This document shows, piece by piece, positions 5,972-49,926 of a stretch of 64,000 nt of DNA. The stretch is taken from NCBI GenBank assembly GCA_024698705.1, contig JAILQX010000018.1, forward strand, positions 1 through 64,000, written 5' to 3'. Each line of letters opens with the position of its first letter. The first letter of the stretch is position 1. The notes below the pieces were generated by a model, which had not been told where the DNA came from, did not search any database, and worked only from the letters and a program-made list of their open reading frames with translations. Position numbers and translations under genes: made by a program. Source of the DNA: Lachnospiraceae bacterium. Lineage in GTDB: Bacteria > Bacillota > Clostridia > Lachnospirales > Lachnospiraceae.

Positions 5972-6042
5972 TGTTATGACTCCTTTCGTATTCTTGTAGA
6001 TATATCTACACTGTTGTTTTCTTCTTGATTCATTTGCCCTGC

Positions 6043-6684
6043 TTATTCAGCTGCGGGTGCTTCCTCTGCTGCGGGAGCTTCTTCTGCTGCGGGAGCTTCT
6101 TCAGTCTTAGCTTCCTCTGCGGGTGCTTCTTCTGCTGCAGGTGCTTCCTCTGCTACGGGTGCTTCTTCTGCCTTAGCTTCCTCTGCGGGAGCAGCTGATG
6201 CACCGCCCTTTTCAGCGATCTGATTAAGTACACGAGCGATATTGCTGATAGGTGACTTCATAGAGCCAAGCAATCTTGAAAGCAGTTCTTCCTTGCTCGG
6301 TATCTCAGCGATAGCCTGGATTCCGGAAGCATCATAAAATTCTCCTTCAACAACACCGGCCTTGATCTCAAGAGCCTTTGCTGTCTTGGCGAACTTTGCT
6401 ATAACTCTTGCTGCTGCCGTAGCATCTTCATTACAGATAGCTGCTGCGCTGGGTCCCTCAAGGAAAGGAGCCAATGCTTCGTAATCCGTTCCCTTGAACG
6501 CAAAATTCATCATCGTGTTCTTGTAAACCTTATAGTTGACACCTGCTTCTCTGAGCTGCTTACGAAGCTGTGTGTCTTCTGCAACCGTAAGTCCGCGGTA
6601 GTCAACAAGTACGACTGACTTAGCGTCTTTAACGGCAGCGGAGATCTCCTCAACTATAGGCTGTTTGATTTCAACCTTTGCCAT
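6043..6684 (-). CDS. rplJ: 50S ribosomal protein L10 with A/E/P-rich C-terminal extension
   Basis: [37 protein letters not shown]...; ORF-track start at 6840 lies inside the L10 leader, true start ATG is at 6684 after an AGGAGG-like RBS. Confidence 0.96.
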
Positions 6685-29462: not shown

Positions 29463-30725
29463 TCATATTATATCATGCTTTTTCAATTCGCTCAGATATC
29501 GTTTGGCGATGCCATCCCATGTATATATGCTGTGATCTTTTGCTGTGAGATTATCCTTTATAGTTTGGTATTCTTCTTTGTTTTCAGCCAGTTCAACTAT
29601 TCTTTTCGCCCAAATGTCTGCGTCGAAGTTCTTGACGATCACTCCGTCCTCACCGTCACTTATAAGCGTATCCGAACCACCGTTATCCGATGAAATGACC
29701 GGCAGATTAAAATACATCGCTTCCAGCAAAACCATTCCGAAGATCTCGTAATTCGACGGAAATACCATCAGATTCATCTGCCCATACATTTGCTTTAATT
29801 CGCTCTGAGTTTTCTTTTTAATATATGTCAGATGCCCCGCATCGATAAGAGGATGGGCCTTTTTCATCCAGTCATCAACATAAGCGGGCTCTCCGTCTCC
29901 GACTATGGTCAAATGGATTTTGTTTTCCCTGGCGATCTCAACTGCCCGTGACAGGATGTCCAGCAAAAGATAGGAATTTCTCCTGGGTTCTATCTTTCCG
30001 ACATAAAGCAGGTTAAATGTATCGGAATCCGTAGTTTCGGAAGCATCTGCTGTTATGCTCCCAAAGTTTTCCGTGTCAAGTCCGACTCCGATCGGCACCG
30101 CATTCTTGAAGCCTTTGGTCTTTAGGAATCCCGCTGCCGCCTTGGATTTGGTAAAGCAAAGTGTATCCCTGTTATGCTTTATATGCAGGAAAAGTGTATC
30201 AAACACCTTGCATTTCAGGTTATAACCTTTGTTGTAATCGTCATAGTAAGGCCCGTGATAGATAACCACAGGCTTATCCTTATACCAGGCATAAAATCTC
30301 CAGGAACTTATCTGATCATACTCATGGACCTGCAGGAGGTCATATTGCTTTGCAATCTTCTTTAAGCCCGGGAAAAAACCATTCTTTAAGATACCAAACC
30401 CATGACGCATGTATACATGAACCTTTGCAGAGGTGATGTTATTTTTTTCTGTTCCTGTGGCAGGTCCTGCAGCAGTTTTTTTGTCTCCCCCTACGGTGGG
30501 TCCTGTAGTGTTTTCAGATATATCCATTCCGGCTCTTGCTACCTGTCCGGCATCGCTTACACCGACTTCTATTTCCCGCTCCTCATTGCCTGCATTACCA
30601 TTATAAAGAACCACATCACAATTAACCCCTGCGCGAACAAGGGCCTTGGCAAAACCTATTTCCTGTATGTTGTATCCGTTCGGATCCAGAATGGAAGGGA
30701 ATGTCCTGATTATAAGTATTTTCAT
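29463..30725 (-). CDS. GT4 family glycosyltransferase with low-complexity insertion
   Basis: LLYVGKIEPRRNSYLLLDIL..., VFPSNYEIFGMVLLEAMYFNLPVISSDNGG. Confidence 0.9.
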   Translation of the reverse strand: MKILIIRTFPSILDPNGYNIQEIGFAKALVRAGVNCDVVLYNGNAGNEEREIEVGVSDAGQVARAGMDISENTTGPTVGGDKKTAAGPATGTEKNNITSAKVHVYMRHGFGILKNGFFPGLKKIAKQYDLLQVHEYDQISSWRFYAWYKDKPVVIYHGPYYDDYNKGYNLKCKVFDTLFLHIKHNRDTLCFTKSKAAAGFLKTKGFKNAVPIGVGLDTENFGSITADASETTDSDTFNLLYVGKIEPRRNSYLLLDILSRAVEIARENKIHLTIVGDGEPAYVDDWMKKAHPLIDAGHLTYIKKKTQSELKQMYGQMNLMVFPSNYEIFGMVLLEAMYFNLPVISSDNGGSDTLISDGEDGVIVKNFDADIWAKRIVELAENKEEYQTIKDNLTAKDHSIYTWDGIAKRYLSELKKHDII

Positions 30726-30781: not shown

Positions 30782-31033
30782 ACAGATAATTCCTATTAAT
30801 CTTTTCCTTTATCTGTCTGAAACGCGCTATTTTGTTTCTTTTCAATAGCTACGACAGATAATCCATCACTTATAGGATATTTATCTGTTTTAAAGGGATG
30901 ATTTCTGCGTTATGTAAACCTGCTGACAGATAATTTCTCTTTATTGGATTATTTATCTGTTCATCGGCCCGGAGATTATTGCAGGAATTCTCTTTTTAAC
31001 AGATAAAGAGTAAAAATTGGATAGATTATCTGT
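30782..31033. repeat. Array of four 35-bp inverted-repeat units ACAGATAA-N19-TTATCTGT, 72/72/73-bp period
   Basis: Units at 30782-30816, 30854-30888, 30926-30960, 30999-31033; all eight 8-bp arms identical; spacers 37, 37, 38 bp. Confidence 0.92.
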
Positions 31034-31153
31034 TTTTTAACCTTAACCGGTAAAATCTTTGATTTATGTAAACCAAAACTAAGGTTGCTCACCCCAAGAA
31101 ACTATCGCAAAAGACGCCACCCTATTGGAATCCCGCATCAAAAACTCTTTTCT

Positions 31154-31208
31154 CCGATCATCCTCTGATCATCTCCTGCGACTTGTCAGCCGATCATCCT
31201 TTGATCAT
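31154..31208. repeat. Direct repeat CCGATCATCCT[C/T]TGATCAT, two copies 36 bp apart
   Basis: 31154-31172 and 31190-31208, 18/19 identical; second copy overlaps the stop codon of the adjacent GT4 gene. Confidence 0.85.
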
Positions 31209-32287
31209 TTTCTGCGGACGGTAAGTTGCGCCATCCATTGTTTCCATATCGCATCAACCGCCCAGTCGTGACTTCTTTCCTTGGCTTTGCTGACAATAGA
31301 ATCTCTGAACTCCCTGTCATCAGCCACCTTGCACATAGCCTTGACCATAGCCTCTTTATCGTCAACCGGAACCAATATCCCGTTCACGTTATTTTCAATA
31401 CACATTCTGCTGCCGCCAACCGGACAATCCGTTGCGATGACCGGAATACCGAGCGCCAGAGCTTCCATAAGGGCATTGGATATGCCTTCCAAACGAGATG
31501 GCGATACAAACATCCCGCCCTTTATCAATTCCGAATAGAGATCATTGGAAAAACCACACATCAATGCTTTGTCATTTAGTCCAAGCCCGTCGATCTGTGC
31601 CTTCAGTTCGTCCTCGAGATCACCCTTTCCGAATATTTTTAATTTATATTCGGGATGAGTCTTTGAAAACTCGGCAAATGAATCGATCAGAAAATCAAAT
31701 GCTTTATAATCCACAAATCTTCCTGCGGAAAGTATCGTGTATTCACGTTCACCGCTCGTATCATATGAAAAAATATCATCCGTCAGAGGATTCATGATAG
31801 TCGTTGCATTGGCTACGGCCTTCGATCCGAAGCATTCCTTGGAATCCTCTGTCTGAAGCACAACTTTGCTTGCCCTGCTGTATAGAAACTCTCTTATAAA
31901 CTTCATTGGCCTGCTTATAGGCTTAAGATTCAGTCTGTTCGGCGGATTTCTTTCAGATACGACAACCGGATTTTCGAGTCCCATTGTCGCAAGCAATGTA
32001 AATAATCCGGCAGATGAGCCCATGGCTATGACTCCGGCGCCGTCAGATTCCTTGATAACCTTTCGCATCGCCGACAGACGTTTAAGCCTTCCGATCAGGC
32101 TGCCGCCTGTAGCCTTTGAGACGCATATCACATTGATACGGTCATCCAGCTTGTATTCCACACGGTCATCCGCGATCATCATGATCGTAACCTTCTGTCC
32201 GAGTGATGCCGCATGATTGGCCAGCACCGATATGACACGTTCCGTGCCTCCGCCAACCATTGAAATTGTAACAAAAATAATGTTCAT
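31205..32287 (-). CDS. GT4 family glycosyltransferase
   Basis: ILSAGRFVDYKAFDFLIDSFAEF..., VSPSRLEGISNALMEALALGIPVIATDCPVGG. Confidence 0.93.
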   Translation of the reverse strand: MNIIFVTISMVGGGTERVISVLANHAASLGQKVTIMMIADDRVEYKLDDRINVICVSKATGGSLIGRLKRLSAMRKVIKESDGAGVIAMGSSAGLFTLLATMGLENPVVVSERNPPNRLNLKPISRPMKFIREFLYSRASKVVLQTEDSKECFGSKAVANATTIMNPLTDDIFSYDTSGEREYTILSAGRFVDYKAFDFLIDSFAEFSKTHPEYKLKIFGKGDLEDELKAQIDGLGLNDKALMCGFSNDLYSELIKGGMFVSPSRLEGISNALMEALALGIPVIATDCPVGGSRMCIENNVNGILVPVDDKEAMVKAMCKVADDREFRDSIVSKAKERSHDWAVDAIWKQWMAQLTVRRK

Positions 32288-48260: not shown

Positions 48261-49926
48261 TTAAATCTTCTCCTCTAAGTTCAAGTCCGCTTATTATCCC
48301 TTTATAGGGAGCTGATGGGAATTGTTCATAACCCGTTTGATCTCCGTTTACCGGAGTGGCTATATCCACTCCAAGAGTGGAATCAATGATCACTTCTCTA
48401 TTATCATAATCTCCCTGCATAAAAGCTCCTGGTATTTTCACATCCGTATACATCATATATGCCGTAAACGCAACGATATAAATGCCAATAAGCACAAAGT
48501 GCAACCTGCTAATATCTCTTTTGGCAGTTATACCGATCTTCTCCAATTTGGGTCTATCATCCATTAGTTTTGCTAATGCAATGCAAGGCAACATTATCAT
48601 ATATATGATACCATATCTTGGGAGCGGAGCGGTCAGAAGCCAAAACAGCGGTCCAATAATACATACGCATACCAGCCAGCCACTTGGTGTGAAGATTCGC
48701 TCTCTTTTTTGTAACGCATGGATCAATATATAGATCAGCGATATCAGAGATATGATGATCATCACTTTCCACACAAGGTGAATACTGAGATACCACTCTC
48801 CTATCCATTGCCATATATGTTCGCCATTACGGGTTATATCCTGATTACCTCTTCCCCAGGCTACTATCTCAGCCCTGTCCCCTTGTAAAACTGTTTTGGA
48901 CATTGTCCAATCAAAGTTTCCAACTTTCGTAGCCTCATAAGGATAAAGCCAGTATCCTGAGATTATCACATTCCTGATGAGGAAAGGACATATCACTATT
49001 ATACCCAAAGATATATGCTTGAATATTGCTTTCCACTCTTTATGATCTATAAGATAATATGCCGGAAATACAACCAGCATTACCAATATACCCACAGAAA
49101 GCTTTAAAGTTGCAGTATATACTAGCAATACGCACAGATAAGCGTATTTTCTGATATCACAATTATCGTCCTCTGCATATTCGGCCCACTTTATAAGTAT
49201 ATAGTATCCAAGTATCAATGCCATTGTATCGGTATTCGGTGAGGATACATGAAATCCGTCATAAAAAATATACAGGAATGCACCCAGTTTCAACAGATCC
49301 GATAATCTCAATACACTTTTTTCATTATTATCACTTTTTAATACAGCAAAAGCCATCATGGCAACAGTAAACAAACCGTTCATAGTGTGTAGCGACTGAC
49401 CAAATAACCATTTGAAGCTGAACAAAGCCTGTAGTGGCATAAATGCGCTGTTATATGCCAATCTGAAATGAAGATTGCCCAATCCGGGAACCACTCCGTA
49501 ATCTTCCAACCAATGTATGGCCTGCGCATGATAAAGATATGTATCATAGTGTTGCGGAGTGATCGATGTCCAAAGCGCAACACCGATCACACCCAATGAC
49601 ATGATCAAGATATATTTCTTTTCTATATGTTTGAGATCATCCGCTAATGTCTCAAAGAAGCGTCTTTTTTTCTTAAGGAGCAAAATTGCCCCAAAAACGA
49701 TCAATAACAATCCGATAAATGCCCACAGATAAAGGCCGTGAAACAGGCTGAATATCTGTGCATAAACACTTATAACCAATATGCCCGTGATAAATATGAT
49801 GTCATAGGAATCACTTAATAATCCATCATCATATAACATGACCACAGCCGCTCTTCCTATAACCATTATACATACAGCCATGATCAGCCATGTTATCAAT
49901 ACACTTAACATTCTAAACCTCGGCAC
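48238..49926 (-). CDS. Polytopic membrane protein, putative GT-C glycosyltransferase
   Basis: QHYDTYLYHAQAIHWLEDYGVVPGLGNLHFRLAYNSAF, a typical first extracytoplasmic-loop pattern. Confidence 0.65.
   Translation of the reverse strand: MPRFRMLSVLITWLIMAVCIMVIGRAAVVMLYDDGLLSDSYDIIFITGILVISVYAQIFSLFHGLYLWAFIGLLLIVFGAILLLKKKRRFFETLADDLKHIEKKYILIMSLGVIGVALWTSITPQHYDTYLYHAQAIHWLEDYGVVPGLGNLHFRLAYNSAFMPLQALFSFKWLFGQSLHTMNGLFTVAMMAFAVLKSDNNEKSVLRLSDLLKLGAFLYIFYDGFHVSSPNTDTMALILGYYILIKWAEYAEDDNCDIRKYAYLCVLLVYTATLKLSVGILVMLVVFPAYYLIDHKEWKAIFKHISLGIIVICPFLIRNVIISGYWLYPYEATKVGNFDWTMSKTVLQGDRAEIVAWGRGNQDITRNGEHIWQWIGEWYLSIHLVWKVMIIISLISLIYILIHALQKRERIFTPSGWLVCVCIIGPLFWLLTAPLPRYGIIYMIMLPCIALAKLMDDRPKLEKIGITAKRDISRLHFVLIGIYIVAFTAYMMYTDVKIPGAFMQGDYDNREVIIDSTLGVDIATPVNGDQTGYEQFPSAPYKGIISGLELRGEDLSEGFKLR

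Follow-up and report, generated by a model that had tools for sequence, protein, structure and literature searches.

A dispersed palindromic array in a Lachnospiraceae genome as a putative binding-site set for a PD-(D/E)XK nuclease-like protein

In REP/RAYT systems, dispersed intergenic inverted repeats with conserved ends and a less conserved middle occur in tens to hundreds of copies per genome, also as tandem clusters; cognate copies flank the RAYT gene, and gene and repeat co-vary (PMC2817692, PMC3116915). The arrays described here share the dispersed intergenic inverted-repeat units, the tandem clusters, the cognate copies at a gene and the co-variation, but the linked protein is predicted to be of PD-(D/E)XK rather than Y1/HUH type, and the short arms of 8-10 bp lack compensatory changes and belong to helically phased units. 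On our best reading, REP/RAYT is the nearest known arrangement, to which the present array system appears somewhat alike but unrelated. Repeats upstream of the toxin gene are also a feature of type III toxin-antitoxin systems. One published account describes an endoribonuclease toxin with a repeat-RNA antitoxin (PMC8860590). Tandem repeats adjoining a nuclease gene recall ToxIN and its relatives, but here the repeats, double-strand palindromes whose cores vary, are spread over the whole genome and helically phased, and the nuclease fold is a different one. Engineered zinc-finger and TALE nuclease pairs combine inverted half-sites, an unconserved spacer and a restriction-type nuclease domain. 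Here, too, a restriction-type domain goes with two inverted half-sites and an unconserved spacer between them, but in natural, chromosomal site arrays, for which dimer cleavage is something that we infer. No published description of a palindrome array with such a linked protein was found in the open-licence literature.

The array in the window and its host genome

The stretch of 64,000 nucleotides analysed here (the window) carries four exact copies of a 35-bp unit, ACAGATAA-N19-TTATCTGT, on the plus strand, with periods of 72, 72 and 73 bp and gaps of 37, 37 and 38 bp (Table 1). The preliminary description had given these positions and spacings and had noted eight identical arms around divergent cores, all of which we confirmed; the GGAT that it reported beside the right arm in units 2-4 is there too, shifted by one base in unit 2. 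Both adjoining genes encode glycosyltransferases: the array lies 56-308 bp upstream of a minus-strand gene (29463-30725; Pfam Glycos_transf_1), the GT4 neighbour already reported, and downstream of a second (31205-32287). Besides the four units, the window holds a single site with at most 3 mismatches, at 49725. Composition predicts 4e-5 exact units per 64 kb, and dinucleotide shuffles gave a mean of 0.53 matches at up to 3 mismatches, with none of 100 reaching five; the four-unit array is far beyond chance. Promoter and terminator scans at the array stayed at chance level. Rfam gave no match there and, elsewhere in the window, only a ribosomal protein L10 leader RNA (RF00557; 6738-6871, minus strand). 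Imperfect tandem repeats of 18 and 66 bp, possibly coding, occupy window positions 6040-6189.

The host genome (G000; 2.54 Mb in 54 contigs), of Lachnospiraceae type to judge by the Butyrivibrio records that have the word in common with it and by the family search, was covered by pattern searches. The genome-wide search for which the preliminary description had called yielded 48 exact units in about 13 intergenic arrays on eight contigs, and the reversed pattern, used as a control, gave no match. All 48 exact units have a 19-bp core, although 10-30 bp were permitted. With near copies counted in, there are 54 units; the number of intergenic arrays is still about 13, and each contains between one and eight units. 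Unit periods are 71-73 bp apart from two 61-bp steps. Gaps and cores recur between different arrays. The cores of window units 1 and 3 are each 74% alike to that of a reverse-oriented unit, on contigs C15 and C16, respectively; for units 2 and 4, similarity to other units in the genome did not exceed the null.

The arms are under strict constraint. Across the 54 host units they show 9 substitutions in 864 positions, and in congener G011, which uses the word TACATCGG, 6 in 1024; adjacent host units are 98% identical in their arms and 61% in their cores. Since arms stay intact in arrays with fully diverged cores, past mobility by itself is a poorer explanation than ongoing function. With units of 35 bp and gaps of 37-38 bp, the array has dimensions that would suit CRISPR, whole or degenerate. 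The chance that it is a CRISPR array is nevertheless close to nil, because conservation is limited to the outer arms, the gaps and cores are common to different arrays, the periods differ by whole helical turns, both from genome to genome and inside a single one, and the same palindrome stands in some 13 unlinked arrays; the earlier judgement that this is not ordinary CRISPR is thus borne out.

Other repeats accompany the arrays. The sequence TTATGTAAAC, which we take to resemble the XerD half of Gram-positive dif sites, lies in spacers of three host arrays, 6-7 bp before a unit, with four such genomic placements. Short tandem-repeat families with periods of 16-40 bp lie about 5-60 bp from many of the palindrome arrays. 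At locus L014 (6374-9475), two paralogous genes of unassigned family each have an array upstream, and gene and array seem to have been duplicated together.

Table 1. Positions of array elements, accompanying repeats and linked genes (window coordinates unless a contig or locus is named)
Feature	Location	Strand	Remarks
Palindromic unit 1	30782..30816	.	ACAGATAA-N19-TTATCTGT; core TTCCTATTAATCTTTTCCT; exact match
Inter-unit spacer 1	30817..30853	.	37 bp
Palindromic unit 2	30854..30888	.	core TCCATCACTTATAGGATAT; exact match
Inter-unit spacer 2	30889..30925	.	37 bp; contains TTATGTAAAC at 30910-30919, 6 bp before unit 3
Palindromic unit 3	30926..30960	.	core TTTCTCTTTATTGGATTAT; exact match
Inter-unit spacer 3	30961..30998	.	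38 bp
Palindromic unit 4	30999..31033	.	core AGAGTAAAAATTGGATAGA; exact match
TTATGTAAAC copies, window	30910-30919; 31064-31073 (approx.)
TTATGTAAAC copies, L017	7540; 7613
TTATGTAAAC copy, L011	7554	minus
Short tandem repeats near arrays	L012 460-554; L013 7125-7227; L015 7627-7688; L016 10943-11035; L017 7724-7837; L020 7671-7810
Host family member 1 (L197)	contig C21, 43971-44723 (L197 1516-2268)		start codon uncertain; ~230 bp downstream of ACAGATAA array
Host family member 2 (L191)	contig C10, 47248-47961		TAAGATA array upstream
Dispersed TAAGATA array, host	contig C21, ~126.4 kb (L106 11628-11818)

Arrays with other arm words

The ACAGATAA word is absent from 19 congeners. Outside genomes contained the two-unit pattern in no more than four records, of which three are named Butyrivibrio, and a family-wide search added one further genus. 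These carriers have (C)ACAGATAA as their word, with cores of 19-22 bp and inter-unit gaps of 26-29, 36-39 or 46-49 bp. An arm-agnostic scan of 1.55 Mb, in which shuffled DNA gave no match, uncovered arrays of the same build with other words, namely ATGACTTTTT in Butyrivibrio M55, TAAGATA in the host genome itself and TACATCGG in G011. The window motif is therefore one member of a class of arrays that occurs in other Lachnospiraceae with the same geometry and differing arm words. For TACATCGG, 156 exact units were counted in G011, as against none in the 19 other genomes of the genus that were searched.

Entire arrays of several units, about 500 bp long, recur at several loci in G011 and are some 75-89% identical overall with almost perfect arms. 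The gene-linked array and dispersed arrays of this genome have units in common with their order kept, which indicates that arrays were copied in bulk. In the host genome, the cores of the gene-linked array are not clearly like the dispersed cores, so that copying from the gene-linked array is not visible there. At the DAHP synthase and rpsT regions of congeners, arrays are absent and the neighbours differ; a clean insertion junction is thus not recoverable, and orthologous congener loci were dropped as empty sites.

Unit periods across genomes cluster at 51-54, 61-65, 72-75 and 81-85 bp, and 42 periods, taken as one value per genome, word and period class, fit a 10.4-bp repeat (R = 0.82). This places the units on the same face of the DNA helix and, across many genera, extends the helical-turn spacing that had been proposed from the window.

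Further loci were observed near these arrays. In Butyrivibrio M55 (L047, 7429-13563), paralogous secreted-type genes stand in a row, and ACAGATAA-word units adjoin two of them. In G011, a gene for an sce7726-family protein (L184, 10485-11204) lies 223 bp from a TACATCGG array; a LytTR regulator near one G011 array was a single case and was dropped.

The linked protein family

Array-adjacent genes in Butyrivibrio hungatei and in M55, one in each, are homologous (39% identity). A search of six genomes returned 26 family matches, and 23 full-length proteins were aligned. A strict test places a palindromic array 5' of 17 of these 23 genes, with about a dozen different words. The remaining six comprise four with arrays that are degenerate by eye, one with an intervening insertion-sequence-like stretch and one with a different repeat. 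Among 28 independent loci, drawn from other genera, the strict test found arrays upstream of 12 and downstream of 1, against 0 of 72 control flanks, taken from two housekeeping genes in congeners (p = 3e-8). Arrays thus lie 5' of the gene and rarely downstream, in contrast to the both-sided placement of REP/RAYT repeats. A relaxed scan, in which scores of at least 20 were accepted and controls reached at most 16, brought in 7 of the 13 loci that were left and had a long upstream sequence, to give 19 of 25; of the 25 loci with usable upstream sequence, 3 had no array by any scan and 3 more scored at background level. Periods in this set again lie near 53, 62-64, 73-75 and 83-84 bp. The family was found in 88 of 299 sampled Lachnospiraceae genomes (about 30%) in one to seven copies (E <= 1e-50), and 118 genomes from elsewhere in the phylum yielded no full-length member at 1e-20. 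Relatives of the protein in viruses match its nuclease end only and are without arrays, and no viral contig contained a two-unit match; a viral origin of the arrays was rejected on these grounds.

The protein, of about 270 residues, consists of an N-terminal region and a PD-(D/E)XK nuclease domain. RSK(S/T)E, PDF and EH are invariant in all 23 aligned sequences, with the classical (D/E)XK lysine not in its usual position; D178 and E193 are among the invariant residues. In profile searches, each of these sequences hits the nuclease end of PADLOC PDC-S68 (best 7e-33). A model of the nuclease domain built from eight sequences (mean pLDDT 73.5) matched the folds of DrdV, Bax1, R2, TT1808, MunI and BamHI, with modest TM-scores and with E-values that are weak beyond DrdV and Bax1. 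The conserved acidic residues (E, PD, E), the profiles and the predicted restriction-endonuclease fold together place the protein in the PD-(D/E)XK superfamily. PDC-S68, a candidate defence protein, and HEAT_CxxC_PDDEXK have this domain in common with it, but those models are longer, whereas the present protein has 270 residues, another N-terminus and a linked array. The N-terminal region matched nothing in Pfam or NCBIfam, and its fold was not recovered, the full-length model from one sequence being poor; no solved structure matched the protein by sequence.

Arm words follow the N-terminal region. In a Mantel test on 18 genes of related proteins, with curated and partly hand-read words, the arm word gave a correlation of r = 0.41 (p = 2e-4) against the N-terminal region and only a weak one, r = 0.14 (p = 0.058), against the nuclease domain. 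No other finding speaks as strongly for a reading of the arms by the N-terminal region. Among the individual pairs, the related proteins L190 and L202 have TACATCGGRA and GACAGCGGAA as their words; the two host proteins, with ACAGATAA and TAAGATA words, are 48% identical, and the hungatei and host proteins that have ACAGATAA in common only 31%.

The co-variation of repeat and N-terminal region, the dispersed and partly tandem intergenic palindromes and the linked gene all parallel REP sequences spread by a Y1 (HUH) RAYT transposase (PMC2817692, PMC3116915), by analogy and not by membership. That such a transposase is at work is very improbable. No Y1 transposase gene (Y1_Tnp; Pfam PF01797) was found in the host genome, 4% of which is unassembled, in M55 or in RGIG8012, whereas the same search was positive in control genomes. 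Moreover, the arms lack the build of a GC-rich, GTAG-tagged hairpin, and they show no compensatory changes. With Y1 lacking, the array one-sided and pairing not conserved, the system would work in a REP/RAYT-like way without belonging to REP/RAYT.

Tandem repeats directly upstream of a nuclease-like gene could instead form an RNA system of the type III toxin-antitoxin kind, in which the upstream array would be transcribed into hairpin repeats that restrain the nuclease. The units do fold as RNA better than most shuffles. However, of 16 changes in the arms, not one has a compensating change in the opposite arm, and the variable positions flanking the arms show no covariation; together with the strict arm constraint, this argues that the arms are read from double-stranded DNA and are not hairpin-paired. 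Periods that track the DNA helix, the many arrays without an adjoining gene, closest folds that act on DNA and the lack of an Rfam match at the array likewise make an RNA system improbable.

A model for binding and spread

The preliminary description had offered a cooperative protein-binding array or a hairpin RNA. The former reading is now supported by constraint on arms and not on cores, by helical periods and by words that follow the N-terminal region; the latter is not, given the uncompensated arm changes. It had also mentioned recombination sites, which the units may be; the linked protein is nuclease-like and is neither a tyrosine nor a serine recombinase. We consider it probable, at roughly three in four, that the window array is a dispersed, gene-less set of putative binding sites for the PD-(D/E)XK protein encoded on contig C21. 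The many arrays in the genome, the same word before a gene on another contig and the recurrence of the design with other words are not visible from the window alone.

Two subunits of the protein would each read one 8-10 bp arm through the N-terminal region, and their nuclease domains would come to lie over the core (19-22 bp), an arrangement like that of zinc-finger nuclease pairs, which straddle their spacer. Two inverted half-sites around an unconserved core, combined with a restriction-type nuclease domain, suggest such a core-straddling dimer, from which we infer cleavage or nicking in the core. Neighbouring units lie whole helical turns apart, which suggests that the protein assembles cooperatively along one face of the DNA. 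Breaks at the arrays would then spread and re-amplify them by recombination, as is thought for RAYT and REP; this is the most speculative step, to which we give somewhat less than an even chance, and the nuclease may likewise be the driver of the bulk array copying.

The same binding step would also serve a different role, in which DNA binding for regulation or nucleoid organisation is the chief task of the protein, the upstream array is its own operator, the dispersed arrays regulate or structure loci and the nuclease domain is secondary. The array upstream of the gene, strong arm constraint in every unit, helical phasing of the sort typical of cooperative binding and the position of several arrays in promoter-side intergenic regions are all consistent with regulation. 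Against it, no target gene is common to arrays or species, and the idea of a regulon was abandoned because genes flanking arrays in five genomes, as taken from a list of open reading frames without overlapping frames, have no family in common. In addition, the core promoter of rpsT is kept in congener G006, where no array accompanies it, one array lies inside an apparent purE-purF operon (L049) and the active-site residues are invariant in all 23 proteins. Regulation as the main role thus appears unlikely.

In the nuclease reading, the protein would belong to a natural system that re-targets rapidly, in which each N-terminal region reads its own word, the nuclease cuts or nicks the core and phased arrays are maintained and spread, with up to several such pairs per genome. 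This full scheme is tentative, and less likely than not. The word-specific pairing of protein and array across Lachnospiraceae points to a previously unrecognised protein-plus-repeat system.

If true, this would account for a class of palindromic repeats that can be mistaken for CRISPR, and would offer a second system, independent of REP/RAYT, in which to study the persistence of repeat populations in bacterial chromosomes. The family would also be a naturally occurring set of DNA readers that work in pairs and carry nuclease domains. Lachnospiraceae are abundant gut and rumen bacteria. In about 30% of those sampled, the arm word before each gene would be a directly readable target code, so that specificity could be tested in one step.
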